Positions 1,683 through 50,241 of a stretch of DNA of 64,000 nt are shown here, in pieces. Source of the stretch: Chrysophaeum taylorii (Eukaryota > Sar > Pelagophyceae > Pelagomonadales > Pelagomonadaceae); the NCBI GenBank assembly GCA_029834535.1, contig JAQMWT010000324.1:62001-126000 (forward strand), given 5' to 3'. How positions within the stretch are numbered: the first letter of the stretch is position 1; each line of letters opens with the position of its first letter. Position numbers and translations under genes: made by a program. The notes beneath the pieces were generated by a model. The model ran no database searches and was not told the origin of the DNA. It saw nothing but the letters and a program-made list of their open reading frames with translations.

Positions 1683-2987
1683 ATGGCCGATCATATCGGA
1701 TTGGGAGAGATATTTAAGGTCTCCAACAAAGGGGATGGGTCCTATTTTAAAGGCGAGAGGAATCATGATGACGAGCTACTGTTCGAGCATTCACTTAGGA
1801 AATCATGGAAACCGGGTACTCACAAATACTCGGAAACCATCAAAACCCCATCGGACAAGGAAATCAACTACATCGAAGTTGTCGACAATTGGAAAGACGG
1901 AACGAACGGAGAGAGGGACGTAACTGTGACGGCCAAGACTGAGGTCCGCGTGACGATTACGGGGGTCTTTGGGCGCGGAGTCAACTGGGACATCCGAGTT
2001 TATGCTCGTCCGACGCCAAATCCCACACCAGACCCGCCAGAGCTCACACCAGACCCGCCAAAGCCCACACCAGACCCGCAAAAGCCGTACGCGCCCTTGT
2101 GTTTTGATCTCGGGCCGTTCGAGGATTATCAAGGTCGCCGACCACGTATAGCTGACGACTGGACGGACATGCCTCGCGAAAACCCGCCGGTCCTCTGCGT
2201 GGTCACGACAGCTGATCGCGAGTACGACGCCGTGGTGGCGCGTCTTGAACCGGCCATTGGTCACAATGTCGTGCTCCAAGTGGTGTGCGGGGGCGTGCCG
2301 ATGCTCGTTGGCAAACTCGGAAGCTACCAAGTCGCTTTACTCCAGACTCACATGGGCGCACACGAGACCAGGGGGGCGCTGCTCCAGGTGCTCCCTAATT
2401 TGTTGTCGGTCCGTTTGGTGATGGCTATCGGTTTCGGCTACGGGTTAAATCCCGCGCCGGCGAGCGCGCCGACGGACGGGCAAATGATCGGCGACGTCAT
2501 GATCTCGGCCAGGTGCCAGGACCTGTCGCATTATCGAGCCACCGACAAATCCATCCAGCCACGTGGTGACGTTACGAGCACGCAAACCAAATTGGTTTAT
2601 GTTTACGGAAAAGCTGTGCGCGACGCGTGGGTGCGAAAAGTCGGTAATTGGGGAGAGCGTCCCCGAGCTCCGAAGATCCACCTCGGAACTTACATCTCGC
2701 TTCCAGTGCTCTTCGACAGTGAAGTGCAAGCCCGCCCCTTCGTCACCGCCACCGCTCATCTGAATCCGATCGGTGGCGATATGGGGCTCTTCCAAATCGT
2801 CAGTGCTGTCGGTCAGCCAGAGCATCCAACAAAAGCTTGGTTAGCCATCAAATCGATCTGCGATTTCGGCGGTTTGATCGAGAAGTCCAAGGAAGGTCAA
2901 CCCCTGGCTGCGGCGACAGCCGTGGCTTTCGCCCACTACTTCTTATCGATCCCTGGGCTGCTTGATCACCTACTCAATAGTACTTGA
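1683..2987 (+). CDS. Gene A: MBF2-like + nucleoside-phosphorylase-like protein (short paralog)
   Basis: The 434-residue product carries only the cassette that opens the larger paralogs. Residues ~1-108 form a beta-rich domain ending GRGVNWDIRVYAR. This resembles the C-terminal signature of MBF2 proteins, known mainly from arthropods, though the match is by eye. A PTPDP-repeat linker follows (~110-140). Residues ~145-430 are PNP/MTA-nucleosidase-like, with IGFGYGLNP, MIGDVMISARC and IKSICDFGG in family order. The start is the ATG in CCATGG, at the same place as in C and E. The family's ribose-binding Met-Glu reads Met-Gly here (GGDMGLFQ), while B and E keep Met-Glu, so this copy may not be catalytic. 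Downstream sequence still resembles the next region of the paralogs, so A is probably a truncated gene. It could act as a decoy, or be inactive. Confidence 0.75.
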   Translation: MADHIGLGEIFKVSNKGDGSYFKGERNHDDELLFEHSLRKSWKPGTHKYSETIKTPSDKEINYIEVVDNWKDGTNGERDVTVTAKTEVRVTITGVFGRGVNWDIRVYARPTPNPTPDPPELTPDPPKPTPDPQKPYAPLCFDLGPFEDYQGRRPRIADDWTDMPRENPPVLCVVTTADREYDAVVARLEPAIGHNVVLQVVCGGVPMLVGKLGSYQVALLQTHMGAHETRGALLQVLPNLLSVRLVMAIGFGYGLNPAPASAPTDGQMIGDVMISARCQDLSHYRATDKSIQPRGDVTSTQTKLVYVYGKAVRDAWVRKVGNWGERPRAPKIHLGTYISLPVLFDSEVQARPFVTATAHLNPIGGDMGLFQIVSAVGQPEHPTKAWLAIKSICDFGGLIEKSKEGQPLAAATAVAFAHYFLSIPGLLDHLLNST

Positions 2988-3260
2988 ACCAATAACTATA
3001 TGCGTATGGAGATTAGCGGAGGCTTCGTTGAGATGGAGCGATTCGTGCGGGATCACGAAGCCGTGTTGCAACCATTACTTTAGTAATCTGAGTCAAAAAA
3101 AAAAACTCGCGGTTTTCTGCTGAACAATGACATATGGTTCAATGGCGCGCCAATGCAGCCAAACTCAAGCACCAAGCCTTAGTATGTCGCACGCACGAGA
3201 TCAGGCAAAGAGGCGCTCGAGCGACATTTTGTTATGATGTAAGTCAAAAGTCCAGAGAGT
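2988..3260 (+). pseudogene. Decayed remnant of the post-PNP region of gene A
   Basis: After the stop of A the DNA still resembles the next segment of genes B, C and D. Around 3030-3090 it matches the GAGATGGAGC ... GTTGCAACCATTAC block. Around 3135-3240 it matches the block that in B encodes TWFKGTDAAKHKQ and the following helix. It is no longer open in one frame. Gene A was therefore once longer and has lost everything beyond this point. The near-identical stop context TTTAGTAATCTGAGTCAAAA recurs after gene C (41632-41655). Confidence 0.65.
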
Positions 3261-6175: not shown

Positions 6176-6540
6176 GCACGGTTGCGATGGAGGACGGTGC
6201 CTTCTGAACCTGCGCCTTGCGAAGGCATCCGTCCTCCCGGCGTAGGTTGGCACCTGTTCGCCCGCCGGGCGGGCCGGTTGGAAGCCGGAACGTTCGCAGC
6301 GGGACGGGTTATGTATTATGGCCAGGGGACGCAGAAGGAAACGTTAACGACGAGGTGGGTGTCAGTCAAATCGCGGTCTCCGCGCCGCATGGCGACAGGC
6401 CTCAAATCTCCCCCGACGCTCCTTCTCCGCGCTGCTCGTCTCTCGACCCCGTGACTTCTGATCCCATGCGCCACGGCGCTAGGATTAGCCTACGCCCCGT
6501 GCACTGAGATGGCCGATAGGTAGTTAGTTAGTTAGTTAGG
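6176..6540 (+). mobile_element. SINE-like element with (TTAG)n tail, copy 1
   Basis: This ~360-bp element is the forward counterpart of 22685-23055 (minus). They share GATGGAGGACGGTGCC at the 5' side, CGGCGTAGGTTGGCACCT, GGCGGGCCGGTTGG and the GCATGGCGACA block. It ends in TAGTTAGTTAGTTAGTTAGG. It is too short to code for anything, and the tail is the same as on the LINE 3' ends, so it is probably mobilised by that LINE. Its last ~80 bp differ from copy 2. The tail overlaps the stop codon of the ion channel gene on the other strand. Confidence 0.6.
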
Positions 6541-12262: not shown

Positions 12263-12895
12263 AAGACGCTCGTCGGAGAGCGTCTCAAGGGACGGCGCTT
12301 TCGTCCAGCTTGTAGACGATGGTGTGATTTTTCTGCCGCGACGGCACCGCAGCGACGTCGGTGCTTCTCAGAAGCTGCTCTCGAAGCCCTCGTAAGCCAA
12401 CGAATACGACCGAACGGTAAAAATCGCGCCCAAATGAGGTCTTGCCATCAACAAAGCGTCGAGACCGGTAGCCCGAGTTAGGACTCGACCGACTGCTTCA
12501 GGCATCAGAGTCTACAGTCGCACGGCTCGCGCGAACGATGGATTAGTGGCAGGCTAGGATCAGCATCGTGACGCTTTCGGTCGCGAACATTGTGTTAAGA
12601 CTGTGAGTCAGCAGCAAGTCTACGTCAGTGCAATTATTTACAATATCATTTTATGGTAGATGACGTCTAGGGAAAGGTCTCGGCCGGCGACTGTGAGAGG
12701 AGCTCCGACTTGGCGATTTGGACACGGCGCGCGAAACTGACTCTTTTGGCTGCCGCCGCGAACGAAGGCGAGATAATCGCGAGGGACGAGTTAGTTTGGG
12801 CAAAAAATATCCCGCGAGTAGCGTGGTGACAAAGAAGATTGACCGCGGACGCGGAGCGACCTGGGGAGTTCGCTCGCGCCGCGCAGATTCAGACT
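12263..12895 (+). promoter_or_regulatory. Conserved 5' region of gene B
   Basis: About 630 bp between the minisatellite and the start of B match 29123-29754 before gene C. Conserved blocks include GGAGAGCGTCTCAAGGGACGGC, GACGTCGGTGCTTCTCAGAAGC, AACGAATACGACCGAACGG, TCGAGACCGGTAGCCCGAG, and near the gene GGCGCGCGAAACTGACNCTTTTGGC. It is the best candidate for promoter plus 5' UTR. The start region ends CAGATTCAGACT before ATG. No element can be named with certainty. Confidence 0.5.
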
Positions 12896-15800
12896 ATGGC
12901 GTATCTTGACATACGGGGAAAGGTATTTAAGGCGTCCAATAAAGCGGATCGGTCCTATTTTGAAGGCGAGAGGAATGATGATGACGAGCTACTGTTCGAG
13001 CATTCACTTAGCAAATCGTGGAAACCGGGGACTCACAAATACTCGAAAACCATCAGAGCCCCATCGGGCAAGGAAATCAACTACATCGAAGTTGTCGACA
13101 ATTTGAGAAACGGGACGAACGGAGACAGGCGCGTGGCTGTTGTAGCCAAAACTGTGGTCCGCGTGACGATTACGGGGGTCTTTGGGCGCGGAGTCAACTG
13201 GGACATCCGAGTTTATGCTCGTCCGACGCCAAATCCCACACCAGACCCGCCAAATCCCACACCAGACTCGCTAGAGCCCACACCAGACCCGCAAGAGCCG
13301 TACGCGCCTCTGTATTTTGACCTCGGGCAGTTCAAGGATTATCAAGGTTGCCGACCACCTTTAGCTGACGACTGGGCAGACGTGCCTCGCGAAAACCCGC
13401 CGGTCCTCTGCGTGGTCACGACTGCCGATCTCGAGTACGAGGCCGTGGTGGCGCGTCTCGAACCGGCCATTGGTCACGATGTCGTGCTCCAAGTCATGTG
13501 TAGGAGTGTGCCAATGCTCATTGGCAAACTCGGAAACTACCAAGTCGCGCTACTCCAAACTCACATGGGCGCGGACGACACCAAGAAGGCGCTGCTTCAG
13601 GTTCTTCCTAGTCTGTCGTCGGTCCGTTTGGTGCTGGCCATCGGTTTCGGCTACGGATTACATCCGGCGCTGGAAAGGACGCCAAAAGACGGACAGATGA
13701 TCGGAGACGTCATGGTCTCCGCGACGTGTTTCGATTTGTCGTCGTACAGGGCTACAGAAGGTACCATCTATCCACGAGGGGCCGTAACTCGGGTGAAAAG
13801 TGTGCTGGCCAACACCTTGAGCAAGCCGCTGTTCGAAGGATGGACTCGGAAGCTTTCAACAGGCGGCCGCCCGCGACCTCCCACCGTGCACGTCGGGACG
13901 TACCTATCACTCCCAGTACTCTTCGATAGTGAAGAACTTGCTCGTCCATTCGTTCAGGCTGCTGCCCACTACAAACCGATCGGTGGTGACATGGAGCTCT
14001 TTCAAATCATCAGTGCTATCGCTGAGCCAGGGCATCTAGCCACAGCTTGGTTAGCCATCAAATCGATCTGCGATTTCGGCGGTTTGATCAAGAAGTCCAA
14101 GGATGGTCAACCCCTAGCTGCGGCGACGGCTGTGGATTTTGCCTGCTACTTCTTATCGATCCCTGGACTGCTTGATCGACTGTTCGAACCTTCTCAGGAC
14201 AAGAATGATATGTTTCAGGAGATCAGCGGCTACATCGATGAGATGGAGCAACTTATTGAGGATTACGAAAACGAGTTGCAACCATTACCTCAGTATTATG
14301 AGATAAAACATGCGGACTTTGATATTGAAAATGCGTACTCACAAGCTCGCCGAACAATCACTTGGTTTAAAGGGACCGATGCAGCCAAACACAAGCAACA
14401 CGTCTCCGCAGACCGTCTGCAAACAATCAGGAAGCATAGAGACGCTCTCATGGGATTATGTTTCGAAGTGAGACAAAGGCCCCATCGAGCAGCAGCTCTG
14501 ATTTGTGTCGAGGATTTACGGACTGCGGCAAAAAGAATCTGCCCTCTGTTGAAACCACTCGGGAACATTTGTGTGCCAACGTATTATCGACCAGATGAGG
14601 AGGTGTTTGCAACAGTTCGAAATTCTCAACCTTTCGCGTGTTTACTCGTCGGTTGCTACGAAAAGGACGCCGATTTGACCGAGATGAAGAGACTTCGCCT
14701 CTGGAATTCAGCTGGGAAAGCACACGAGATGCAACCAAAGCACGTCGCTGATTTCATACAATCGGTGCGGCCCGTGTGCACTCTGCTCGTCGCCGACGAA
14801 TCGGACGACGATTTCGGTGCAGAACTTACGAATTGTCTTGAAGATGACATGTACTTGATCGCATGGAAGGGTAAAGTGACTCAGCCGCTCTACGAAAAAT
14901 TCATTGGGAGTTTCTTGCGACTCTGTCTGAGTGACACAACCGAAGGAGTTCTTGGGTGCGTAGAGTGCGCGTATGTCCGATCAGTGATTGAGTTGACTCA
15001 TGAACCTGGGGCGACTCGACCGGTTATACTGCATCCTTGCACTTCGAGAGTGACGGAACTCCTTTCCCAGAGCAGACTAGAAGAAATTCGCATCAAACTT
15101 TCAGGACCTAAGAACTTACTCAACACCGGTGAAGACCCTTCGCTGTTGAGAATAAAAACCCTCCTTTGTCGCGCAGTTGTCAACACGCGAAATTTTGAAC
15201 ACGAGGCAAGGATTGTCATTCACGGATTCGTGTACGAGCGCGACAAGGGCGAGCTAGAGAGACTACTTGATAATTTGGAATTCTTAAGTTTCGGCAAAGT
15301 TGAAGTTAACCGCTCCCCATCAAATGGCTCTCTCATTTTCACTTGTATCGTCTCGGATCTGAGCTGGTTCTGCGAATGGGGACGAAAGACTGCCGCTGAT
15401 CTGCAATCCAAGACACCGCGAACTTTTTGCATAACAGAAATAGCCATCACTGGACTCGTCGTCGAACGGTCAGCGTTAGAAATGTTGCAGAAAGATCGAG
15501 AAGTGGTTGAGCCGCTGTGCACGTCCGATTTTGAGGAAGAACGCTTGTTCGCTGGGCTCGTAAAGTCCAATTTGACGTTTGAAGAAATTGATCGAGTCGC
15601 TCTCTGTGTTCAGGGATGGTATTATGAAAAGCACGATCTCATCGCCACCGAAGGCGGCCGTTCGATCAACCTCGGAAGGAACCCGCAGACGCGCGCGTAC
15701 GATATTCTCAGTTCTGGAGAGGTTTCGCGCGTCACAGATGCGGACGTCAAGTACTTTCTCTCGAACCAAGTCACGAGCGTGAATCTTGTTGATTGTCTAA

Positions 15801-18800
15801 GCATCACGGACAGCGCGCTTCAGGCGATTGCTGCCAACTGTTCGAACCTCACAAATCTAAATGTCTCGGGGTGCGAGAATTTGACGGACTTTGCTCTGGA
15901 GGCGATTGCCGCCAACTGTTCGAACCTCACGAAGCTCAATGTCTCGGGGTGTGGGAAGTTGACCGACGACGTGCTCCATGCCCTCGCCGCCAATTGTTCG
16001 AACCTCACGAGTCTCGACGTCTCGGGGTGCGGGAAGTTGACGGGCGCCGAACTCAAGGCAATTGTCGCCAACTGTTCGAACCTAACGCGCCTCAAAGACG
16101 ACCCCGTACAGCGCGAGGAGGATGTTGCTACGACCAGGAAGGTAGTGCCTATGATCGCAACCGAAGGCGTCGGAGTGAAGGGAACCGCTGCCACCGCTCT
16201 CGCTTCCGGGCCGTCGTCCACCCATTTTGCGGAAGTCTTGGCAAAACGGAGACACCAAGACCATATCAAACGCAAGCAGCAAGAAGAACACCGACAAGAG
16301 CTTGAGCGCGAGAAGGTGGAACAAATGGAAAAGGTTGACGAGCTCATCATGACCGAGAAGAAGAGCCGTTTTCTGCTCAAGGAATTTAGTGCCCTGTTGA
16401 AGCGCGCCTTTGAACGCTTCGATGACGCTGCTGTTCAAAATGCCCGCGAGAAGGTGCTTGAGCTGATGGACGACACAAGTTCACTTGCATTGTGTGAAGA
16501 AGGCTTCGTCTTGCAGCTGCTCGTGGCGAGCTTTGCTGACGAAACCAAGACAATCGAAGCACTCCTAGAGAAGGCGCCAACTATCATCCACGAGACGTTG
16601 TCTGACGTCGGCGGCGCCTGTTGGGCGCTCTCGGCGCTTCACGTCTCAGCGATGCGCGGCAACTTAGAGGCCATCACGAAGCTGAAAAACATGAACGGCG
16701 ACTTCACCATCTCCGACGCGCGCAAGCGGACGCCGTTGCATCACGCCGCTGCTCGCGGCCACGCCAACGTGGTTTTGTACTTGGTGAAGTACTGCGGTGT
16801 CGATGTCAACGCCGTGGACTGCAGCGATCGGACAGCCTTGATGCACGCCAGCTACGAAGGGTTCCTCGACGTCGTCGTTTGTCTTGTTGACGTGGGAAAC
16901 GCTGATGTGAACGCCGGGTTCGATGACGACTATGGCGACGAAACTGCCATCGACTTAGCTATGTGTCGAGGCCACACCAGCGTCGTGAGATACTTGGAGA
17001 AGCGTGGGGCACGTCGACTCTCAAGACCAATCAAGATGAATACTAGCAGCGCCCCGATGATTACGCAGACTCTTCGCCTTGACTCTGTATACGTCGGAGG
17101 CGTGGGACGGACCGCAAGGGTTCGCCTGCCATCCTCTATCGCCGAAAATCGGAGCGACCAGCAAAGTTCGGACTTTGTCGCGATGTCAAGTGGCTGCGAG
17201 GACCTCGGATTTCGCGTCGATCAACGCGCGGCAAAAAAAAAAAATGTTGTTGCTGCTGAGAATCTCTGGGGCACGCGCCAGTCGTTTTCGGCCAAACACA
17301 ACCACGTCGTCGATTCTCTTCCCACGAAACCCACCAAAACCCAGCGTTCTCTCGGCGTCGGTAAGCTCGACGTGGGGTACCTCGTTCGCCTGCCCACGAC
17401 GGGCCGGCCCGTGTTTGAAGTCGTCGACTTCATCGCGCAAGGGGCTCATGGCGAAGTCTATGTCGTTCGATCGATGACTCGAGCTGCGGCGTCGTTTGCG
17501 ATGAAACGCGTCCGATCTGACGAGCTCCGAGGGGCTTCGGTCGCCGCGAAGAAGAAGAATAACATCGTGGAGGAAATTCGACTCTGTCGCGAGGCCTTGC
17601 TTATGGCCGAGCTCGGCACGCACCCTCACATCGTTTCGCTGCACTACTGCGTCGTGTCAGGCAGTAATGCAGAATTCTTGCTCTTCATGACGCTCGTCGA
17701 CGGGGCCCGCGACTTGGAGCGACTCGTCTCGAGCGGCGACCTTTACGACCGGGACACACGTCTCGTGCGCGCGTCAATCTTCTCAATACTTCAGCAATTG
17801 GCCTCGGCGCTTGCATTTTGTCACTCGCGAGGCGTTCTGCATCAAGACGTCAAGCTCGAAAACGTATTGGTCGACACCGTGGGTCGCGCCTATCTGGGGG
17901 ACTTTGGTCTCGCGCGCCACGGCGATGGGGTCGGCGCGCAGCTCCGAGCGCCGCTCGAGGGTTGCACACCGGCATACGCGTCCCCTGAAGTAATTGCGGC
18001 GCTCGACATACCGTCGGGTCAACCTCGCCGGGTCATACGGAGTGTTTCTCCCGCCGAGACTGATATTTGGGCGTTTGGAGTCGTCGCTTTACTCTTGTAC
18101 CATGGTGACGAGGAGGGGTGTCCCGAAATGCAGACGGCGCTCGAGAGTATCCAGACGCTGCAGGCACCAGAGGCAAGTTGGGGGCGGCTCGAAGTGCGCG
18201 CTTGGTTGCAAAAGCACTCGCTCTCCATTCAGGAGGACACACTCGACGGTGCAGCGCTATTCACATTGTCGCCGAACAACCTCCACGATGCTTTACCGTG
18301 GCTTCCAAAGAAACGAGATCGAGCACGATTGCGTCGGATGCTCTTGGCGCCACCTCCCGCCGTGAGCATTCTCCTTCGGCAATGTCTCGCCGCTCACATC
18401 ACCCAAAGACCAACCTGCGGCGCAGCTCTGCTCGAATTGATGCAGGTTCCCGCCACGTCGACAACTCATCATCATCCTGTGGAGGAGGATGTCGCAGGGA
18501 CGCTGCTCAATATTGGCCGAGCGGTGGTCGAGCTAGAGGATGTCGAACTTGCGTGCAGGGCACTCGAGGCTGCGGCAGCGAATGGCGGCGACGCGGCAGA
18601 ATGTTACTCGCTCATCGCGTGCGCGCACGTGCGCGCTGGCAGCTGCGAAGAAGCATTGGTGGCGTGCGACCGGGCTTTGAGCCACGACGCAGAGCACGGC
18701 GGTGCGCTTTTTGCCAAGGCGGAGGCAACGTATCGCCACGACTCCTCGGACTCGCTGTTTCTCGAAGTCGTACGCCGCGCGCAGCTGTATGATGCGAAGC

Positions 18801-35700: not shown

Positions 35701-38700
35701 GCGGCGCGAAAGCTCAAAGAGTTTAATGTTCCGTGGGTACTGAGCTGGACGACGCCAGTAGATGACGAGGCCGCCAAGACCTTCGCCGAAGGATTTTACC
35801 GTTGGCTCGCTGGAAACCCAGGCGACTACAAAGGCGCGTTTGAGAAAGGAAAGAAAGAATTGACCGATCACCTTTGGATCATCGAGGATCCGACAAATTC
35901 TCGGTGCGGGCAAAAAAGTGGCATACCGCGACTGCGTGGTCCAACAAATCCGAAGTATCTGCCGCCCCCGCCCGAGCCGAGCACGCTTGAAATAAAAGAT
36001 ATCGCGTTCATGAAAGAGACACTTGCGACACTACACAAGACCTTCTTGCAGTACCTGAACGCCGAGCTCCAATACCCCAAGCTCTTCTTCGTCGTCAAAT
36101 TTCCGACGTCTTATGGGCTTGTGGCGGACCGGCTGATTAACGAGCAACTGATGGTCGTCTTTGTCTGCGAGAAGACGAAGAAACGTGCGCGGTACGAAGT
36201 CGATGGCAAAGATGTCGGTGGCCTCATCGTAACGGCGATGAAGCCCAGTGTCCGTAAATTCATCAAACGAGTCGACGACTTCTGGCATCGATTTGGTCCT
36301 ATTGTCAAAATCACTGCTGCTCTTGTCGTTACCGCGGTCAAGGCGACGACGAGTGTCGATCTCAAAGAGTTTGTCCCCTCGGCGTTGATGGAGACGTCGA
36401 AAGATTCTAAAGGCACTCACGATTTCATCACTCGGTATGCCGAAGACGCGGGTGCCAAAGTCGACGAGTCGCTCGCGGATGGCATGGTGACCGAAGTCGC
36501 CACCGCGGGTCTCGAAGCCGCCGGCATCGACCACTCAACTCTGAAATCGATCTTGCCAGCCAAAGGCTTCGAGCAGATCCAGAACATGAAGTTCAATCGC
36601 AAGACTTTCTTAGAGTTCGGGGATTTTCTTGTAGCCGCCGGCTATGATCGCAAATGCCTCTGCATGGACATCGACACCATCGGCGATTCCGGCGCCGGAT
36701 GGATCGCCCGAGACGTGGATCGCCCAACACAACGCGTGGACGACCTGCCTCCGCAGAAGAAGGTGATGAAGACGATCGAGCTGACGAAAAAAGCGATGAA
36801 GGAGGCGACCGAACGTACGGACCCGCAGAGAGCGGACGTGGAGCGAGTGGACGATTTCGTTGACCAAGGGCTCGATGTTACACTTTCCATCTTGTCGACT
36901 GGAAGGGCGCTTCCCCTAATCAGTGAGGCATGCGGCGTGGCCGGGGCGATCCTGAAGGACGTGCAAAAATACAAGGATAAGGCTGATGACGTAGTACAGG
37001 CCGGTCGCCGCGTCCTGGATGTCCTCGAGTTCCTCCGACTCCTCACGTCTCGCGTCCGCGAGTTATCCCCTGAATCAACGAGCGAGGTGCGCGCGGCGAT
37101 GGCAGACATCACGCAGTTGCTCGAGGAATTCAAGACGGCCGTTGAAAAATTCGGCAAGCCCGGCTTCTTCAAACGATTCTGGAAGCAGCGCGAGTACGCG
37201 GGGACGCTCTCGCGCCTCGACGGTGAGATCCGCGACAAACTTGACTTCCTGACGAATGCGTACGGCCTTGCGAGAGACGCCCAAGTTGAGGGCTTGCCAC
37301 GAGCTATTACGTACAAGCTCGAGGAGGCGCTCGAGAAGTACGTCGACGAGCGCCACGACAAAGACGAAAGGGCGCTCGAGAATGCGGCTAAAGAGGGCGG
37401 CGTCGACGCAGAGGAAACCACGATGGCGCTCGTGGCACTGCACCAAAAGGTGGAGCTCGAGAAGGATCTAGTGCGCGAGATGGCGCAATCGCGGGAGTAT
37501 GGTCGTCATGAGGTCCTCAAACAAGCTCTTGGTAGGGGCAGCTTACCATGGCGGCGCTCACGCCTGATGGTTGTTGGAGAGGGTCGCGTGGGGAAGACGT
37601 GTCTCGTTCGGCGCCTCAAAGGGGAGGACATCGACTCGAATCAGCAAAGCGCCCGTGGTGCTGAGACGTCAGACGTTGTTGTGACAAAGCCCGAATTCGA
37701 ACGCCAACGTTCAACACCAACTACTGATGCATCCGAAAATGCAGGGTTTAGGTTTCGGGGATCGTGGACTGGAGAGGTGAGACCAGAGTACGACGAGGGC
37801 GCGATTCCGCACGGGTCTGACCACACGCGCAAGCTTCGGATAAGCATCTGGGATTATGGCGGGTGTAAGCGAGCGTAACTCTCCCCGCGTGTTAATACTA
37901 AATATTATTGTGCTCTTGTTGTGTGTCCCCATCCTGCTCACCAGCTTGACCTCAGGCCAAATGTTTTCCAAGTTGTGCACAACAAGTTTCTTTCGCGAAA
38001 AGGAGTTTACCTCGTAGTTTTCAAGGTGATCGACTGGCTCGGTACGGAAAGCATCGGGGGTGTCGCCCGCGAGCAGCTTGTCTTTTGGCTTAATTCGATT
38101 TCGATTCATGCGAGTGGTGCACCGTTGCTGTTGGTCGGGACGTACTGCTGCGACTCTAAAGTCACGGATGCTGACCTCTCGAGGATTTCGGGCGAGATGG
38201 ATGATTTGGTTGCTAAAGCTAATTTGAAGAGTAGCCTGAAGCGCTGTGAGAAGACTGGTCGTGTGTTTTACAAGGTCGACAATCTACACATGGAGCAAAA
38301 CGATCCTGTCTTCAGGGACCTGCGCATAGCAATCGAAGACGCGATCTGCAGCGACAGTGACCGGTACATCCACACAGAGGTGCCATTCGCGTGGCTGCAA
38401 GTGTGTGACGAGCTGCAAAAGGCCCATGTCGAAAAAGATTGGCATTTCGTTGGGATCGGCGCGTGTTCTGAGCTGCTTCATCGCTGCTACGAAGGAATGG
38501 GGAAGTCACTCGTTGACGAGACTGAAGTCTACAGAATGCTCTCCCTTTTCGACGAGCTTGGTGTCATGACATACTTTGGCTCTTCCTATGGTTCGTTGGC
38601 TGGTAGTGTTGTGATCTTGGACCCGCAATGGATCGTCGATATGTTCACTGCTGTGATCCGCAACTTCGAGCGGCACAGGTTACGGCGCGATGTCGCAGCT

Positions 38701-41589
38701 TGGCTCGGAGGGTTCGGAAGTTGCAAAACTTACCCGGCGTCTGTTGGTGAAGTATTGTGGCACCACTTGACGCGAACTGGCATTCTGGATGACCGTCTCC
38801 TTGATCACCTCTGGCCAGACCACGAGTGTCATAATGATGACATACTGAAACCCGAGGGTGTGCGAGCGGCAGTGTTGGAGATCATGGAGGGTCTTAAACT
38901 CGTGGTGAAGTGCGTCCCCATTGATGCCCTCGGCGAGCCAGAGCTGGAGCTTGTCCCACAGTCACAGCAAACCAAGGAGCACCCAGTACGAACACGCCAC
39001 ATATACTTGGTACCGAGCATCTTTCAACTCGAACCTTCACCAAGCACCTTTACGAAAGACCGTTATGACGTACAGGCGGCGCTTCAGTTCGAACATTATC
39101 TGCCCGACGGCCTCTTTAGCCGCTTGGTAGCATCGCTGATTCCGGATTGTGAACAACAATTTGAAGAAGCTTTTGCACCAGGGGGCCTGTTTCGGACGGC
39201 GGTACGCCTCAGCTTTGACAACCGGTCCACGATAGTCACGCTCATGGAAGTACGTGCAATGGTTGAACAACAGGGTAGTGTCTTCATTGGGGTGCGCTTC
39301 AAAGGGGACGAGAGTCATAAGGAAAGCCACAAATCGAACGGCAAGATGCTAATAAGCTGGGTGCGTGAAGCGCTTGACGGCGTTTTGGCGGCTTTCTATG
39401 CCGGATCAGGAAGCTCAAAGCTATCGTGTCCCCAAATCCTTGAATATCGATGTGTGATGGATGTTGACGCGCCTGATGCTGCAACTAAACTTGTCGCTGA
39501 TCAGAAGTCTCCACTTAAATTGGGAGACAGCGGTGGACACGGCACACTCACCGCAAACACGCGTTGTCGAAATGGCAGGAACATAAAGGATGAACTCAAA
39601 ATGCATGAACTTCAGTTGTGGCTCGAGAGTATTAAGATCCCTCGGGCGAAGGCGAAAGAAATAGCTGAAGCGATGTGGGAAAATAGTATCTTGTGTTCGA
39701 TGGATGCCCTGCATGGACTGCACGTAAAATGCAAGAAGCAGCGGAAGGACAGGCGCGACAACGACAGAGACGAGTGGTGGTGCCGCGCTCTACACAATAC
39801 GGAAATCCAAGATGATGCTCGCAAAAGAATTGGCACGGAGATAAATTCATGGAAGAACCGCGATGTTTGCACGCCAATTTTTGCCTTCTGCGTCGAGTCA
39901 AAAGATCCCGACGCCGATTCAAAGATTTTGCGGAGCGAACAGACAGCTATCGTGGAGGGACTTTTGTTCCAACCTTGGAACGCACTGAAGAAGCTGACCT
40001 TGGCAGATCTCGAATCTGGTGCATTACACAGTTTCCAGAACTATCTCATGACGAGGTCTGGAAAATTAGAGATTGTGCATATTTCTGCGCACAACGTCCC
40101 AGGAAGTAAATTCTTCGATGACTTTCGGGCTAGGCACCTTCGTAAACTCACGGTGCAGCCAAACTGCGTGATCCTCAACTCGTGTTCGTCGCGCAAGGTT
40201 GGAGAGCGACTGTTTACCGATTTCCCGGGGTGCGAACACCGCTGGGTCGTGGCCTGGGACGCTGATGTGACGGTCGACGAAGCTGCAGCCTTTACCCAGG
40301 GATTCTACATGAGATTTGTTAGTGAGTATCCGTCGGATGATGATCTTAGCGAATCTAAAAACATTGGTACCGGCTTCTCTCGTGTAAAAGAGACATACCG
40401 AACAGACGACCCAGGCAATCGATACGTCACCTTATACTTCAGTGGTCTGCTTTTCATGAAGAATAGAGACTTAAAACCACCGTATGGAAAGGTCATCCTG
40501 CTCCACAAGAGAATTGAAGTGTTTCAAGGCACCGCAGAGCCCGACCCTTCACTCTCGCTTGAAGCCAGTTCGTGCAAAACGGCGAGCACGCGTTCCGTAC
40601 CTTTAGAAGTGCTCACGCTACGGCACAAAGGCGAGGAGCTTTACGCGCCATTGTTTTTTGATCTAGGACCGTTCGAGGAATATCAAGATCGCCAACCATC
40701 TTTCTCTAAAGACTGGATAGACATGCCTCGCGAAAACCCGCCGGTCCTCTGTGTGGTCACTACAGCTGATCTGGAGTACAAGGCCGTGGTGGCGCGTCTC
40801 AAACCGGCCATTGGTCACAATGTCGTGCTCCAAGTGGTGTGCGGGGGCATACCAATGCTCGTTGGCAAAATCGGAAACTACCAAGTCGCGATACTCCAAA
40901 CTCGCACGGGCGCAGTCGCGACCAGGGAGGCGCTGCTCCAGGTGCTCCCGAGTCTGTTGTCGGTACGCTTGGTGATAGCCATCGGTTTCGGCTACGGATT
41001 ACATCCAGCGCTAGCAAGTACGCCCAAAAAAGGACAGATGATCGGAGATGTTATGGTCTCGGCGACGTGCTTCGATTTGTCGACGTACACGGCCACTGAA
41101 GGCGCAATAAACCCACGAGGGCCCGTAACTTCGGTGAAAAGTGTGCTGGCCAACACCTTGAGCATGCCGCTGTTCGAAGGGTGGTCTCGGCAGCTTTCAA
41201 CAGGCGGCCGCACGCGACCTCCCACCGTGCACTTCGGGACCTACCTGTCCCTCCCAGTCCTCTTTGATAGTGAAGAACATGCTCGTCCATTCGTTGAGGC
41301 TGCTGCGTACTACAAGCCGATCGGTGGTGACATGGAGCTCTTTCAAATCATCAGTGCTATCGGTGAGCCAGGGCATCCGACGAAAGCTTGGTTAGCCATC
41401 AAATCGATCTGCGACTTCGGCGGTTTGATCAAGAGGTCCGAGGAAGGTCAACCCCTTGCTGCGGCGACGGCCGTGGATTTCGCCTGCTACTTCTTATCGA
41501 TTCCTAGACTGCTTGATCAACTGTTCGAACCTACTTGGGACAAGAATGATATGCTTCAGGAGATGAGAGCGGCTACATCCACGAGATAG
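29755..41589 (+). CDS. Gene C: giant NLR-like protein with two Roc-COR, two CHAT, HeLo-like and two PNP domains
   Basis: About 3,900 residues in three exons (29755-34117, 34159-37862, 37956-41589). Order: MBF2-like ~1-112; PNP ~125-410; caspase-fold-like region without clear catalytic residues ~455-700; Roc ~974-1342 with GQGGAGKTS and WDFGGQPVF; COR ~1342-1640; CHAT ~1825-2025 with His ~1896 (FAMHGTS) and Cys ~1963 (FLNCCES); alpha/beta region; four-helix HeLo/MLKL-like bundle ~2348-2495; second Roc ~2585-2831 (GEGRVGKT, IWDYGG) and COR ~2831-3178; possible SAM-like segment ~3240-3290; second CHAT ~3328-3481 with His ~3402 and Cys ~3433; second PNP ~3588-3878. Known family roles suggest a GTPase-switched receptor with protease, membrane-damaging and nucleoside-cleaving outputs. 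The first PNP reads GGDFELFQ instead of GGDMELFQ. One frame interruption occurs within the first PNP near 30500, which could be an assembly error or real. The tail past the second PNP is cut relative to the paralogs. Confidence 0.8.
34118..34158 (+). other. Intron 1 of gene C (41 nt, GT-AG)
   Basis: The intron begins GTGAGT and ends CCCATAG. It carries an in-frame stop, and its removal joins DSITF to VVRDF in the COR domain, changing frame from 2 to 1 exactly as needed. At 41 nt it is very short for a eukaryotic intron. Confidence 0.8.
37863..37955 (+). other. Intron 2 of gene C (93 nt, GT-AG)
   Basis: It begins GTGTAAG and ends GACCTCAG, splits a glycine codon (phase 2), and removes stops between IWDYGG and NVFQVVHNKF in the second Roc domain. 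It sits right after the switch-II-like DYGG motif. Confidence 0.7.
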
Positions 41590-42651: not shown

Positions 42652-45600
42652 GACCGCCATTGGTCACGATCTCGTGCTTCAAGTCAAGTGCGGGAGCGTG
42701 CCGATGCTTGTTGGCAAACTCGGAAACTACCAAATCGCGCTACTCCAAACTCACATGGGCTCGGACGAGACCAAGAAGGCGCTGCATCAGGTTCTCCCTA
42801 GTCTGTCGTCGGTCCGTTTGGTGCTGGCCATCGGTTTCGGCTATGGATTACATCCGGCGCTGGAAAGTACGCCAAGAGACGGACAGATGATCGGAGATGT
42901 ATTGGTCTCCGCGATGTGCTTCGATTTGTCGACGTACAGAAGGTACCATCCATCCACGAGGGGCCGTAGGCTCGGGTGAAAAGTATGCTGGCCAACACCT
43001 TGAGCAAGCCTCTGTTCGAAGGATGGACTCGGAAGCTTTCAACAGGCGGCCGCCCGCGACCTCCCACCGTGCACGTCGGGACGTACCTATCACTCCCAGT
43101 ACTCTTTGATAATGAAGAACATGCTCGTCCATTCGTTCAGGCTGCTGCCCACTACAAACCGATCGGTGGTGACATGGAGCTCTTTCAAATCATCAGTGCT
43201 ATCGGTGAGCCAGGGCATCCAGCCGCAGCTTGGTTAGCCATCAAATCGATCTGTGATTTCGGCGGTTTGATCGAGAAGTCCAAGAAAGGTCAACCCCTGG
43301 CTGCGGCGACGGCCGTGGATTTCGCCCACTATTTATTATCGATCCCTGAACTGCTTGATCGACTGCTCGAACCTACTCAGGACAAGAATGATATGCTTCA
43401 GGAGATCAGCGGCTACATCGATGAGATGGAGCAACTTATTGAGGATCACGAAAACGTGTTGCAACCATTACCACAGTGTTATGAGATAAAACATGCGGAC
43501 TTTGATAATGAAAATGCTTACTCACAAGCACGCCGAACAATCACTTGGTTTAAAGGGGCCGATGCAGCCAAACACAAGCAACATGTCTCCACAGACCGTC
43601 TGCACACAATCAGGAAGCATAGAGACGATCTCATGGGATTCTGTTTCGAAGTGAGACAAAGGCCCCATCGAGCATCAGCTCTGATTTGTGTCGAGGATTT
43701 GCGGACTGCGGCAAAAAGAATCTGCCCCCTTTTGAAACCACTCGGGAACATTTGTGTGCCAACGTTTTATCGACCAAATGACGAGGTGTTTGCAACAGTT
43801 CGAAATTCTCATCCCTTCGCGTGTTTATTCGTCGGTTGCTACGAAAAGGACGCCGATTGGACCGAGATGAAGAGACTTCGCCTCTGAAATTCAGACGGAA
43901 AAGCAGATGCTATGCAACCAAAGCATGTCGCTGATTTCATACGATCGGTGCGGTCCGTGTGCACTCTGCTCGTCGCCGACGAATCGGACGACGATTTCAG
44001 TGCAAGACTTACGAATTCGCTTGAAGATGGCATGTATTTGATCGCGTGGAAGGATAAAGTGACTCAGCCGCTCTACGGAAAATTTATATGGAGTTTTTTG
44101 GAACTCTGTCTGAGTGGCGCGACCGATGGAGATCTTGGGTGCGTAGAGTGCGCGTACGCGCGATCAGTGCTCGAGTTGACTCACGAACCAGGGGCGACTC
44201 GACCGGTTATACTGCATCCTTGCTCTCAGACAGTGACGGAACTCCTTTCCCAGCACAGACCAGAAAAAATTCGCATCAAAGTTTCGGGACCTAAGAACTT
44301 ACTCGATCCTGGTGAAGAGCCTTCGCTGTTGAGAATTAAAAACCTCCTTTGTCGCGCGGTTGTCAAAACGCGAAACATTGAACACGAGGCGAGGATAGTC
44401 ATCAAAGGTTTCGTGTTCAAGCGCGACATAGAGGAACTAAATTCAGAACTCGATATGAATTGGAATTCTTAGGTTTCGACAAAGTTAAAGTTGACCGCTT
44501 CCCAAGAAATGGCTCTCTCATTTTCACTTTTGTCGTCTCGGATCTGAGCTGGTTCTGCGAATGGGGACGAAAGGCTGCCGCTGATCTGCGATCCAAGACA
44601 CCGCCAACTTTTTGCATAACAGAAATAGCAATCACTGGACTCCTCGTCGAACGGTCAGCGTTAGAGATGTTGCAGAAAGATCGAGATGTGGTCGAGCCGC
44701 TTTGCACGTCCGATTTTGAGGAAGAACGCTTATTCGCTGGGCTCGTAGAGTCCAATTTGACATTTGAAGAAATTGATCGAGTCGCTTGCAATGTTCAGGA
44801 CCGCTGGACAGTGCACCACGAAAAGCATGACCTCGTCATCACCGAAGGCGGCAGTTCGACTCACCCCGGAAGGAACCTTGAGTCTCACAATGCTTCCTGT
44901 TTTGGAGAGGTTTCGTGCGTCACAGATGCGGACGTCAAGTACTATCTCTCGAACCAAGTCACGGAGGTGAACCTTGTTGATTGTCTAAGCATCACGGACA
45001 ACGCGCTCCAGGCGATCGCCGCCAACTGTGGTGCGAACCTCACGAATCTCAACGTCTCGGGGTGCGAGAATGTGACAGACGAGGCGCTCATGGCGATCGC
45101 CGCCAACTGTTCGAACCTCACGAAGCTCAATGTCTCGGAGTGCAGGAAGTTGACTGACGACGGGCTCAAGGCGATCGCCATCAACTGTTCGAACCTCACG
45201 AATCTCGACGTCTCAAAGTGCAAGAATTTGACTGACGACGCGCTCAAGGTGATCGCCGCCTGTTGTTCGAACCTCACGCACCTCCGCGTCTCGAGGTGCT
45301 CGAATTTGACTGATGACGCGCTCGAGGCGATCGCCGAGAACTGTACGAAGCTCATGAAGCTCAATGTCTCGGGGTGCAGTACGTTGACCGACGACGCACG
45401 CAAGGCGATCGCCACCTACTGTTCGAACCTCTCAATACTCTTCGCATTTAGTTGCAACTTCATGTCCCTACCCCAAGACATTGGCGATCGGGTGCCGGAG
45501 CTCCAAACATTAAACCTATTCGCCAACAAGCTCACCGCGCTCCCGCGCTCGATTGTGAAGCTGACGAAGTTAAAAAACCTGACTCTCCGTAAAAAACCGC

Positions 45601-47448
45601 TCCAGACGCCGCCCGTGGAGGTCGCCGCGCTGGGCCTACAAGCCATCGCGCGGTACTTCGCCGAGCTCGACACTGCGTACCAGGCGGTCTCGATGGAGCT
45701 CATGGTCGTGCTGGTTGGAGAAGGCGGAGCGGGCAAGACGAGCCTACGCAACGCGATCGCCGGTCGCGTGAATCCGCGCCAGGGGCGGGACGATAGCACG
45801 CTGTACCTCGACCGCGAGAAAGTCGAGATAGACGACGTCATTCTATCTTTCTGCGACTTGGGTGGGCAACCCGCGTACACGAGCTCCCAGGCGCTGTTCA
45901 CCACGCCCTCGGCTCTCTACCTGCTCGTCGTCCCCATAGACAAGGCCGACGAAAATAACTTCGAGGATGATGTCGGACGATTTTTAGAGGTGCTGCAAGC
46001 GTTAGTCCCAGGCGCCATCGTGCAAATCGTCATCACAAAGACCGACCTGGTCGGCAACGACGAGAGCGCGGTCTCCAAGTGCAAGAAGTGGTTGCACGAT
46101 GCAGTCAACGAGGAACTCAACCGGTGGCGAGAGGCGGTGGCGAAAAATCAGAATGTTTCCCCCGACGTAGTCCAGATGTTGAAAGTTCAAGACGAGGTGC
46201 TCGCAGTGACGGTCGACGATGCAGCCGTGATCGACGCCGCGCGCAAGTCCATCGTCGAGCTCACGACACTCTTCCCGAGTGTTGGGCAGACGATTATCCG
46301 CAATCGTGGTTGGCTCTTTGGGGACTTTTGAGTGAAATCGCGCGGCATGGAGACGACGACCGGGCGGTGGATGCCATACGCTCCGATGCCGCGTTGCCTC
46401 ATGGAACACCCTTTTCGAACGAGCAACCGACGACGGTCTCATCTCGAGGAGCATATCGACGCGAGACGTCTCTCGAATCTAGCTGGGATAATATACGCGA
46501 CGACTTTAAAGGAACCGAGGATACCTTCGCCCACGCGATGAAGTTGTACCAGGCTCAAGGCAACATCGTTGTCGGAGAGGGGATCGTGTTTTTGTAGCCG
46601 TCACTTTTGGTGAACATCATGAAAGCACTCATTGACCACACGCTCGAGGCCGACGATGCCACTAACCGAAGCATCGCCAAGTTTGTCGAAACCAAGGGAC
46701 TTCCGGTCCAAACACACCTTGAGCTGGTCGAAAGTCTCGAGACATACATTCAATGTGGCAAGCTCGACGTTGGCCTCCTCTTGTGGCTTTGGCGGGATCT
46801 TCCGATTGACGTCGCCGACTACGAGCCCGTCGTGCGCATGCTGATCGACTGGAGGATTGTGATCCCCTTGCGACGCGACGACACTGAGGCGATTGCTGCA
46901 GTGGTCCTTTTCCGACTCTCCAAGACAGCACCACCAGAGCGAGAGCGAGCGTGGCCCGCCAAGCTACCACCAGACCAGCGCCAGATGCAGTTCGTCTTTG
47001 AGTTTTTGACGGGTTGTCCGCCCAACCTTTGTGTGAACGCTTCGCAGCGAACGCTCACAATTTTGGTGATCCTCTGTGCGCGTGGCGAGATGGCGCCGTC
47101 GTCCTCAACGCGGACCACAACTACCGGATCTGTGTGGACTTCTACGTAGGCGGAGAATCGACTTCACTTGTGTTTTCAGTTCGCGTGGAGCCGGGAAGCG
47201 AGGCGGCGGCCTGGGTGATTTTGTGCCAAGCGAAGGCTCTCCTCGAGTGGGATCGCGATGCGCGGTTTCCCGGAGCCGTGTTCGACGTCTGGGTCACGTG
47301 TCCCGAGTGTATCGCGAGGGGTCTTGACGTCGCTGGCAGGTTCGCGTGGACCACAGCGCAAAATCGAGGCTCGGTCGCTTGTAAGAAATGTTTCGAGCCT
47401 GTCGAAATTTGCAGCCACGCGACTGGTCGCGCCACGCAGATTCAGACC
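42652..47448 (+). pseudogene. Gene D: 5'-truncated PNP-LRR-Roc-COR paralog
   Basis: D begins inside the PNP domain, so it lacks the MBF2-like part and its promoter. The order then is PNP (to ~43340), the caspase-fold-like linker (to ~44230), six cysteine-type LRRs of 26 residues (44980-45420; LNVSGCENVTDEAL), a short plain LRR pair (LQTLNLFANKLTALP), Roc (45700-46290; GEGGAGKTS, CDLGGQPAY, ITKTD) and COR with a cysteine motif CPEC ... CKKC (46300-47400). It is closest to gene B up to the LRRs and then switches to a Roc-COR module. About six breaks in the coding frame make it very likely a pseudogene, unless several are assembly errors. Its last frame runs without a stop into gene E at 47449, so D and E are joined in one open frame. 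Confidence 0.75.
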
Positions 47449-50241
47449 ATGGCCGATCCTGTCGGATTGGGAGAGATATTTGAGGTCTCCAACAAAGGGG
47501 ATGGGTCCTATTGTGAAGGCGAGAGGAATCATGATGACGAGCTACTGTTTGAGCATTCACTTAGGAAATCATGGAAACCGGGTACTCACAAATACTCGGA
47601 AACCATCAAAGCCCCATCGGACAAGGAAATCAACTACATCGAAGTTGTCGACAATTGGAAAGACGGATCGAACGGAGAGAGGGACGTAACTGTGACGGCC
47701 AAGACTGAGGTCCGCGTGACGATTACGGGGGTCTTTGGACGCGGAGTCGACTGGGACATTCGAGTTTATGCTCGTCCGTTGCCAGAGCCCACACCAGACC
47801 CGCCAGAGCTCACACCAGACCCGCCAAAGCCCACACCAGACCCGCAAAAGCCGTACGCGCCCTTGTGTTTTGATCTCGGGCCGTTCGAGGAATATCAAGG
47901 TCGCACGCCGATTTTCGCTGACGACTGGACGGACATGCCTCGCGAAAACCCGCCGGTCCTCTGCGTGGTCACGACAGCTGATCGCGAGTACGACGCCGTG
48001 GTGGCGCGTCTTGAACCGGCCATTGGTCACGATGTCGTGCTCCAAGTGGTGTGCGGGGGCGTGCCGATGCTCGTTGGCAAACTCGGAAACTACCAAGTCG
48101 CTTTACTCCAGACTCACATGGGCGCACACGAGACCAGGGGGAAGCTGCTCCAGGTGCTCCCTAATTTGTTGTCGGTCCGTTTGGTGATGGCTATCGGTTT
48201 CGGCTACGGGTTAAATCCCGCGCCGGCGAGCGCGCCGACGGACGGGCAAATGATCGGCGACGTCATGATCTCGGCCAGGTGCCAGGACCTGTCGCATTAT
48301 CGAGCCACCGACAAATCCATCCAGCCACGTGGTGACGTTATGAGCACGCAAACCAAATTGGTTTATGTTTACGGAAAAGCTGTGGGCGACGCATGGGGGC
48401 GAAAAGTCGGTAATTGGGGAGAGCGTCCCCGAGCTCCGAAGATCCACCTCGGAACTTTCATCTCGCTTCCAGTGCTCTTCAACAGTGAAGTGCAAGCCCG
48501 CCCCTTCGTCACCGCCACCGCTCATCTGAAGCCGATCGGTGGCGATATGGAGCTCTTCCAAATCGTCAGTGCTGTCGGTGAGCCAGGGCATCCAACAAAA
48601 GCATGGTTAGGCATCAAATCGATCTGCGATTTCGGCGGTTTGATCGAGAAGTCCAAGGAAGGTCAACCCCTGGCTGCGGCGACGGCCGCGGCTTTCGCCC
48701 ACTACTTCTTATCTATCCCTGGGCAGCTCGATCTGCTCCTTGGTCAGGAGACCGTTGGTCCGAAGACCGCAGTGCCCGCTGGCTCCATGGAAACCGTTTC
48801 GGGGTTCGATTCTCGAGTGCAGGCGGCAAAGCTGGAACTAGCGGCAGTCTTGACGGGCCTCGGCGAAATGGTGAAGGGCGCGGCTGGGTCGATCCCTGTC
48901 GTGGGGAAAGGAATCGTGAGCAACGTGGAGCGCTTCTGTGATGCCTACGAGGCCACCAATAAACTTGTCGAAGAGTTCGACATCGAATGGGTGCGCAAAG
49001 CTGGAGAAGAGCTCGAGGCGATGCACTACTTGGGCTACTACATCCCCGATGTATCGACTGATTCGCTGGACATTTTCCTCGGTAAGCGGCTCACCAACTT
49101 TGTTTCGGCGCTCAAAGATTTGCTCGAGTTGGTAAACTACGTGCTTCCAGAAGAAGATTCAGACGAGACAACGAAGACGCTGTTGGAAAAATGGAGTGCC
49201 GAGATGAAAGAACGCGGGAAAGTGTGGCTTTGGAAAAACAAGCTAGAGGAGCTTAGTAAACGTCTCGCCGTTGCTCGCGTTGAGTTGTCTGATGCGATGA
49301 TCACGTACAACGTCAGGGGCGGCAAGAACGATCGTAGCGGCGACGATGGTGAGGCTACGGCAGTCGTCTTGGGCACTGGTCTTTGCGCGATCGTATGTGC
49401 GTCGGAGGAACTGCCACGTCGGGACACTGTTGTCCAACACGCTTTCGCATTGGAAGTTGAAGCTTTGAGATCTGCGCTCCGTGCGAACGTTATTTTTGGT
49501 GCGGCTGCGAACCTTATGAGTGTTTTTCGCAAACCCGTTGTCCGTTCGCTTATAAAGCTCGCGACGAATGACGAAAATCTACAAGTTGTGATGGTCAACT
49601 CAGACGACAGCCGCCAACTCAAGGAGAGACTGTTGCATTTCCCTCGGGCTGTTGGTGACCTTAAGATGATTGTGTGGCATGGCAAGGTGGATCCGATATT
49701 GGTCGCTGACTTTACCAAAGGCTTCCTGCGTTCTCGTGAGGAGTCTCTGGAAGAAGCGTGGTACTCGACTCCACCGTGGTTGCGGTGGTGGTATTGGACA
49801 ACGAACTCCTTGAAATGGGACGTGCACCTCGCGTTCGAAGACGGCGTAAGAAATATGGGGATACACGTGGATGCTGAACATTATCCAGCAGAGTTCGAAA
49901 CCACAGGGCAAACTGGATACGTGAACAACATCCTTGTTAATTGTGGTGTTCCAAAAAAGTTCAGCATACGATTCCCTCGTAAGTGCCGCTTTGCCGAGGA
50001 GTGTGTCAAGAAACTGAAAGAAACAGTACTAAAAGCAGGAAGCGTGCGGCCTCATGTGAGCGAAGTTTCGTTCGATGACCGGGTGTGCTTTGAGTTGCAC
50101 TTCCGAGGTGAAATATTAGAAAACGAAGATATCCATAAGACAATCGCGGATGTGTGTGCGCGAGTACAGAGATCTTTATCACGAAAGCTGCCTCATCTTC
50201 GACGAGTTAGTTGTACAGTGAGTCGCATTCGACGCGGTTAG
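47449..50241 (+). CDS. Gene E: MBF2-PNP-HeLo-like-degenerate CHAT protein
   Basis: 930 residues in one exon. MBF2-like ~1-110, a PTPDP-repeat linker, then PNP ~145-428 with IGFGYGL, MIGDVMISARC, GGDMELFQ and IKSICDFGG, so the catalytic signature looks complete. Residues ~446-625 are helical (KGAAGSIPVVGKGIVSNVE at the start, a long amphipathic series after) and resemble the HeLo/MLKL/RPW8-type bundle that permeabilises membranes in fungal, animal and plant cell death. Residues ~631-765 look like a CHAT fold whose NSC motif is NSD (VVMVNSDDS), followed by IVWHGKVDPILVADFTKGF, so it is probably non-catalytic. The C-terminal ~130 residues are unassigned. The ATG in ACCATGG matches the paralogs. 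The same frame is open upstream into pseudogene D, so a longer fused product cannot be excluded. Its own upstream promoter block is missing. Confidence 0.8.
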   Translation: MADPVGLGEIFEVSNKGDGSYCEGERNHDDELLFEHSLRKSWKPGTHKYSETIKAPSDKEINYIEVVDNWKDGSNGERDVTVTAKTEVRVTITGVFGRGVDWDIRVYARPLPEPTPDPPELTPDPPKPTPDPQKPYAPLCFDLGPFEEYQGRTPIFADDWTDMPRENPPVLCVVTTADREYDAVVARLEPAIGHDVVLQVVCGGVPMLVGKLGNYQVALLQTHMGAHETRGKLLQVLPNLLSVRLVMAIGFGYGLNPAPASAPTDGQMIGDVMISARCQDLSHYRATDKSIQPRGDVMSTQTKLVYVYGKAVGDAWGRKVGNWGERPRAPKIHLGTFISLPVLFNSEVQARPFVTATAHLKPIGGDMELFQIVSAVGEPGHPTKAWLGIKSICDFGGLIEKSKEGQPLAAATAAAFAHYFLSIPGQLDLLLGQETVGPKTAVPAGSMETVSGFDSRVQAAKLELAAVLTGLGEMVKGAAGSIPVVGKGIVSNVERFCDAYEATNKLVEEFDIEWVRKAGEELEAMHYLGYYIPDVSTDSLDIFLGKRLTNFVSALKDLLELVNYVLPEEDSDETTKTLLEKWSAEMKERGKVWLWKNKLEELSKRLAVARVELSDAMITYNVRGGKNDRSGDDGEATAVVLGTGLCAIVCASEELPRRDTVVQHAFALEVEALRSALRANVIFGAAANLMSVFRKPVVRSLIKLATNDENLQVVMVNSDDSRQLKERLLHFPRAVGDLKMIVWHGKVDPILVADFTKGFLRSREESLEEAWYSTPPWLRWWYWTTNSLKWDVHLAFEDGVRNMGIHVDAEHYPAEFETTGQTGYVNNILVNCGVPKKFSIRFPRKCRFAEECVKKLKETVLKAGSVRPHVSEVSFDDRVCFELHFRGEILENEDIHKTIADVCARVQRSLSRKLPHLRRVSCTVSRIRRG

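Follow-up and report, generated by a model that had tools for sequence, protein, structure and literature searches.

The 64,000-nt window analysed here (positions 62001-126000 of contig JAQMWT010000324.1, hereafter C324, in the 70.8 Mb, 697-contig genome of the pelagophyte alga Chrysophaeum taylorii) carries a cluster of genes built on a shared cassette, in which an MBF2-like domain is joined by a PTPDP linker to a PNP-type domain. On balance we favour the view that the products of the cluster are large intracellular receptors of NLR/ROCO type, in which repeats would sense, an NTPase would act as a switch and the PNP domain would cleave a nucleotide, stopping or killing the cell. This view starts from features present in the sequence itself, namely the order of the domains and their motifs, a gene family, two alternative N-termini and constraint on the PNP domain. 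More tentatively, we propose that the cassette, extended by a dead CHAT domain, was recombined into the unrelated NACHT and Roc-COR switches, where it would rival a 4-helix effector for the same position, with PNP, CHAT and 4-helix domains stacked in single chains as the modular immune system of a colonial microalga. Immune receptors have been studied thoroughly in animals, plants and fungi but far less in microalgae. Should the genes function in the way suggested by their parts, the logic of a fixed body with exchangeable killers, familiar from fungal NLRs, would also exist in a stramenopile alga and would span two switch families, which would help in asking whether it is ancestral or was assembled again. 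The cluster would then also supply a concrete gene set for testing virus resistance in bloom-forming algae.

A local gene family with a constrained PNP domain

Searching the window by tblastn with genes A and B placed complete cassettes at A (1683-2987), B (from 12896), C (from 29755) and E (from 47449), a PNP domain without MBF2 at D (40633-41535) and a broken copy at D' (coordinates are those of the window unless a contig is named). The initial annotation, made from what it took to be a protist genome and what is indeed that of a pelagophyte, described A to E as five tandem paralogs. Four of these carry the full cassette; D is the PNP end of C, and a sixth copy, D', is decayed. Five equal paralogs are ruled out by the lack of MBF2 in D, the decay of D' and the truncation of A. 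The genome-wide count that the same annotation had proposed gives 11 stretches matching the cassette, and C324 holds seven copies (A, B, C, D, D', E and F). The family thus extends past the interval first annotated, to F just upstream of the window at C324:52372-57061; further relatives are G on contig C398, 93% identical to B, and the distant H on C28 (37%).

Profile searches were made at two levels, with single window proteins and with a six-frame translation of the genome. The Pfam cut-offs were 25 bits for MBF2 (PF15868), 25.1 for PNP_UDP_1 (PF01048), 26.7 for NACHT, 27 for Roc, 35.3 for COR-A, 24 for CHAT and 27 for MLKL_N. MBF2 passed its curated cut-off in four of four window copies (27.3-30.5 bits, model positions 2-90 of 90), and the whole-genome search matched it at five places: A, B, C, E and one on C398. 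PNP_UDP_1 scored 12.7-24.4 bits in five single window proteins, under the cut-off, the lowest value belonging to a fragment of C broken by a frame shift. In the six-frame search it passed for B, D and the C398 relative (25.6-28.5 bits), with A, C and E not among the matches listed; in H it scored 30.9 bits. The MBF2 and PNP assignments, which had been put forward for checking by profile, are upheld by these scores. The MTAN-type DME and SICD motifs of the cassette align with DME and VVTD of the alga's own MTA nucleosidase, encoded on C47 (E 1.9e-62 to the solved MTA nucleosidase 2h8g). As that metabolic enzyme is a separate gene, the cassette PNP is ruled out as a housekeeping enzyme, and the cassette genes form a local multi-copy family rather than a single-copy one.

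Comparisons between the older copies indicate constraint on PNP. Thirteen of the 15 whole-domain PNP pairs, with synonymous divergence (dS) above 0.2, have ratios of nonsynonymous to synonymous divergence (dN/dS) of 0.15-0.38, and 12 further PNP comparisons with pieces of C give 0.14-0.51. The ratio is 0.37-0.96 over ten MBF2 pairs and 0.45-0.92 over three pairs of the domain that follows PNP (the middle domain).

Gene B and apparent module exchange on the NACHT body

Genes A and B contain the following features.

1683..2987, + strand: gene A, 434 aa, with no domains beyond MBF2-like and PNP; truncated compared with its relative B, and with DMG in place of the active-site DME
12896..21883, + strand: gene B from the shared ATG; reading frame open from 12839, 3014 aa
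12965..13219 (C324:74965-75219), + strand: MBF2-like domain of B, from the whole-genome MBF2 search
13376..14201, + strand: PNP_UDP_1-type domain of B, motifs E-Y-x-A-V, G-G-D-M-E-L and S-I-C-D
14480..15034, + strand: pseudo-CHAT domain of B (model residues 529-713), from the structure model
15767..16030, + strand: LRR stretch of B, made of 78-nt repeats that do not reach the cut-off of the Pfam LRR models
17417..18427, + strand: protein kinase domain of B, E 1.2e-26
19079..19456, + strand: NACHT domain of B, Walker A GDAGSGKG, Walker B LDGLDE, with HLTFQEY further along
20990..21817, + strand: C-terminal ankyrin array of B, 102-nt repeats, from Pfam and repeat analysis

In a single frame, B runs MBF2-PNP-pseudoCHAT-LRR-ANK-kinase-NACHT-ANK, as assigned by Pfam and a middle-domain model, with a TPR-like stretch recognised by eye between kinase and NACHT. 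With MBF2-PNP at the N-terminus and an ankyrin array at the C-terminus, B has the architecture of an NLR/NACHT STAND protein; its NACHT domain scores 32 bits in the six-frame search and 25.9, slightly under the cut-off, in the whole protein. The middle domain of B, C and G resembles CHAT in fold, and the positions of the catalytic His and Cys read LLVG and LLVAD by eye; on this reading all three lack the residues a CHAT peptidase requires. Gene A ends directly after PNP, and DNA similarity to B continues for about 110 nt further. Identity between A and B is 80-91% over MBF2 and early PNP, 67 and 56% inside PNP, then 82 and 76%. The resulting mosaic is suggestive of recombination or gene conversion. 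The DNA upstream of B (12250-12549) and of C (29126-29425) is about 95% identical, and GC-rich 43-nt minisatellite arrays lie upstream of both genes (11035-12257 and 28773-29146).

A search with the CHAT-4-helix region of C found two proteins of the same species, P0008 and P0009, whose N-terminal domains are 74% and 66% identical to the 4-helix domain of C and are followed by ankyrin, kinase and NACHT. The body of B is 74% (aa 1164-1386) and 94% (aa 1523-2306) identical to that of P0008, P0009 being more distant; the kinase-NACHT part of B is thus 94% identical to a protein that starts with an MLKL/HeLo-like 4-helix domain. Counted genome-wide as best candidates, which may include assembly duplicates, there are 24 stretches of the NACHT body of B, spread over 15 contigs, and 29 of the 4-helix domain, spread over 23. 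Twelve of the 15 NACHT-body contigs have the 4-helix domain 2.1-3.6 kb upstream of the NACHT body in the same orientation; the other three are C437, C489 and the contig with B, and B has MBF2-PNP-pseudoCHAT-LRR at that position. C309 has the 4-helix domain and NACHT together with a distant middle domain, each in an open frame of equal length, 3406 aa. Because PNP and the 4-helix domain hold the same position on the NACHT body, the latter on 12 of the 14 other contigs, equivalent roles are suggested, and one receptor body would seem to swap effector modules like fungal NLRs. This apparent exchange supports the earlier description of the genes as receptors built on a shared cassette. Two CHAT matches elsewhere in the genome (C25:69915-70691 and C521:69905-70681) share score and frame length; they are perhaps duplicated assembly sequence and advise caution on family counts.

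The cassette on putative Roc-COR proteins

The remaining members within the window lie downstream of B.

29755..41589, + strand: gene C, pieced together; one inserted nt at 30502 compared with B, probably two introns
32693..32818, + strand: first Roc P-loop region of C (GQGGAGKT), from Pfam and motif
34118..34158, + strand: 41-nt GT-AG intron of C, same junction in public protein CTAYLR_006524 (P0007)
35374..35820, + strand: CHAT domain of C with HFAMH and LNCCES, from Pfam CHAT
36775..37350, + strand: MLKL/RPW8/HeLo-like 4-helix domain of C, MLKL_N 23.7 bits (cut-off 27)
37561..37689, + strand: second Roc P-loop region of C (GEGRVGKT), absent from P0007 through splicing
38389..38664, + strand: second COR-A-like stretch of C, scoring 26.5 bits against a cut-off of 35.3
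40078..40191, + strand: second CHAT-like stretch of C, HISAH to LNSCSS, from motifs
40633..41535, + strand: D, PNP domain at the C-terminus of C, without MBF2, from a six-frame PNP match and tblastn
42656..44454, + strand: D', decayed PNP and pseudo-CHAT (sixth copy), with indels and in-frame stops
44460..46331, + strand: LRR array and Roc/RagA-like GTPase upstream of E, Roc 34.4 bits (cut-off 27)
47014..50241, + strand: E frame, MBF2 (47518-47772), PNP (47851-48741) and helical, otherwise unassigned C-terminus

Gene C is read as MBF2-PNP-pseudoCHAT-Roc-COR-CHAT-4-helix-Roc-COR-CHAT-like-PNP, with COR and 4-helix as candidate assignments. Its Roc domains score 47.4 and 27.8 bits; its CHAT domain, in which the catalytic His and Cys are present, scores 26.0 bits as an excised piece and 23.4 in the whole frame. 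The second CHAT-like stretch has no Pfam match of its own. The 4-helix domain also resembles plant RPW8 in two of three members (best 0.0017), and its structure model reaches a predicted local distance difference test (pLDDT) of only 38. P0007 spans only part of C: the second Roc P-loop is removed from it by splicing and it stops at 37878, so the rest of the C model has no backing from it. In D' an 8-nt deletion, 1-nt and 2-nt insertions and in-frame stops interrupt the frame.

The LRR-Roc frame lies upstream of E, with which it may form a single gene. COR-like and zinc-ribbon-like stretches at the N-terminus of E, between that frame and the cassette, were recognised by eye, and Pfam supports neither there. 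A HeLo-like module, named in the initial annotation, is matched in C below the Pfam cut-off, and none was found in the helical C-terminal part of E, which has no Pfam match and no profile similarity to the 4-helix domain of C. Of the other modules, NACHT, Roc, COR-A, CHAT, LRR, ankyrin and kinase matches all exist, several of them below cut-off.

Outside the window, F has a Roc domain (35.8 bits), a COR-A match that stays below cut-off, motifs of CHAT type and, at its C-terminus, PNP; when excised, its CHAT stretch matches nothing in Pfam. TPR-like exons, judged by eye, precede it. These units (C324:49831-51596; L050 7831-9596) recur about every 169 or 337 nt (with 66% and 94% matches) and are apparently one per exon, reminiscent of exon shuffling in brown algal receptors. 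Further upstream, a 350-aa frame (C324:48637-49686; L050 6637-7686) contains FWVDMFSVAQND and VWCLNECF and looks TIR- or HET-like by eye. G (C398, minus strand; L053 3829-8886) joins the cassette and pseudo-CHAT to LRR and then seven hydrophobic segments, a domain without a Pfam match. In H, PNP and a hydrophobic segment (379-411) are followed by an NTPase of NACHT type (NPHP3_N, 60.8 bits), by WD40 and by a weak match to ankyrin.

Proposed mechanism and alternatives

These data allow us to hypothesise how the receptors might act. The repeats (LRR, ankyrin and, in F, the TPR-like units) would sense a ligand. The protein would then be oligomerised by an NTPase switch, namely NACHT in B and Roc-COR in C and F; for E it would be the Roc immediately upstream. 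Once clustered, the PNP domains would split a purine nucleotide at its N-glycosidic bond, with ATP, the substrate of bacterial Detocs, as the likeliest target, and growth would stop or the cell would die. In sister genes a 4-helix domain of pore-forming type or a CHAT protease may play the same output role. Behind PNP, the pseudo-CHAT probably serves as a scaffold or a protease-binding adaptor, and the MBF2-like domain is perhaps an oligomerisation or decoy part. For the ligand, activation, ATP as substrate, cell death and immunity, we argue by analogy with published accounts of fungal NLRs and Detocs (PMC10197012, PMC12258605, PMC12881547, PMC11249213).

Several observations weigh against this mechanism. 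The PNP domain is found N-terminally, C-terminally and mid-chain, which is untidy for a single effector role, and its DME motif departs to DMG in A, DFE in the first copy of C and DMD in P0006. Pfam gives no PNP match for P0006 or P0004. Nearly all of MBF2 and PNP is modelled at pLDDT under 50, which makes both folds provisional. Among the switches, the Walker A of B finishes GKG instead of GKT/S, and COR-A after Roc in C and F scores 22.1-29.6 bits, below cut-off. The 4-helix domain matches MLKL_N in two of three members (best 3.8e-5), also below cut-off, and C437 and C489 carry the NACHT body with neither the 4-helix domain nor the PNP cassette. A and D' are damaged and C is one base out of frame. 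Recent pairs have dN/dS near 1 over PNP (A/E 0.96, B/G 1.17) and, for B/G, 0.92 over the middle domain.

The damage could mean that the cluster is mostly decaying recombination debris left by a recent segmental duplication, with few working copies (B, perhaps G and F). The truncation and DMG of A, the three frame-breaking indels and stops of D', the 1-nt insertion in C, the upstream DNA common to B and C and the near-neutrality of recent pairs all fit this account. We nevertheless consider it improbable, given the long open frames of B (3014 codons), G (1686), F (1277) and E (1075) and the constraint on PNP between older copies; the insertion in C could be a sequencing error. Even less probable, in our judgement, is that PNP is a nucleoside-binding sensor or regulator, the output lying with the kinase, CHAT or 4-helix part. 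PNP does share a chain with a kinase in B and with CHAT and a second CHAT-like stretch in C, and it is C-terminal in C and F, but active-site motifs are retained in most copies examined, and its place on the body of B is taken by the 4-helix domain on 12 of 14 other NACHT-body contigs.

Rather better placed, and still unlikely, is the use of the same machinery for self/non-self recognition or programmed death in mucilage colonies and not against pathogens. C. taylorii lives as colonies in mucilage with associated bacteria (PMC10366177), fungal NLRs work in allorecognition (PMC10197012, PMC12881547), and the cluster is rich in repeats and locally duplicated. Against this, no sequence feature links the cluster to cell fusion or contact. 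We continue to favour receptors with a nucleotide-cleaving PNP output.

Relation to known systems

In fungal NLRs, as described, a NACHT or NB-ARC body is headed by a PNP_UDP_1 or HeLo-like domain (PMC10197012, PMC12258605). The algal genes resemble them in PNP and 4-helix domains as alternative N-termini, in NACHT or NB-ARC switches and in WD40, ankyrin or TPR ends, and H, with PNP-NACHT-WD40, has their kind of architecture. Unlike the fungal proteins as described, the algal PNP has an MBF2-like domain before it and a pseudo-CHAT after it and occurs also on Roc-COR proteins and at C-termini, and in B a kinase precedes NACHT. Brown algae, described as having LRR-ROCO and NB-ARC-TPR candidate immune receptors (PMC11378527), share the stramenopile host, LRR with Roc, duplicated repeat units and a proposed immune role. 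Those ROCO proteins are mainly simple LRR-ROCO, whereas here Roc-COR is combined with CHAT, 4-helix and PNP domains; neither CHAT nor PNP appears in the main text of that paper. Since a peptidase domain stands at the C-terminus of three ROCOs from brown algae and of some from other SAR species (PMC11378527), a protease-ROCO fusion is not new in itself. The bacterial Detocs PNP effector cleaves ATP (PMC11249213), and the likeness lies in a PNP-family domain as a nucleotide-cleaving effector in a conflict system, the algal activity being predicted. Detocs, as described, is a three-gene system, and the substrate of the algal PNP is a prediction only. The pseudo-CHAT is 13% identical to the SAVED-CHAT filament protein (PDB 8tl0), from which it differs at the catalytic His and Cys positions (LLVG/LLVAD, by eye).

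The initial annotation presented the system as apparently undescribed. PNP-NLRs are known in fungi (PMC10197012, PMC12258605) and ROCO candidates in brown algae (PMC11378527), as those accounts give them. The individual parts are known already, and what holds of the claim is their combination in one algal cluster, which we have not found described. Our searches of an open-access library listed no description of PNP on Roc-COR, of an MBF2-PNP-pseudoCHAT cassette or of effector exchange in a pelagophyte. The main text of the C. taylorii genome paper, which reports 71 Mb on 702 contigs, contains none of the terms 'immun', 'NACHT' and 'NLR' (PMC10366177). The PNP-like plus pseudo-CHAT protein P0006 is filed under a cyanobacterial metagenome-assembled genome, on a 3,814-base contig whose source may perhaps be a mis-binned eukaryote.

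Other features of the window

Dispersed inverted repeats, 92-96% complementary, lie between genes (4543-4708/25067-25232/25828-25980 and 3678-3811/10111-10244) and are perhaps mobile-element remnants. On the minus strand, a 441-aa frame (6536-7861) with several membrane segments looks like a ligand-gated channel by eye and has no Pfam match. Downstream of the cluster, 55172-56332 encodes a 3'-5' exonuclease domain protein (PF01612, 41.4 bits), and 60424-61413 an esterase/lipase-like protein (DUF676, 20.8 bits, cut-off 20.3) that has a GHSMG motif and contains a 45-nt repeat close to its start.

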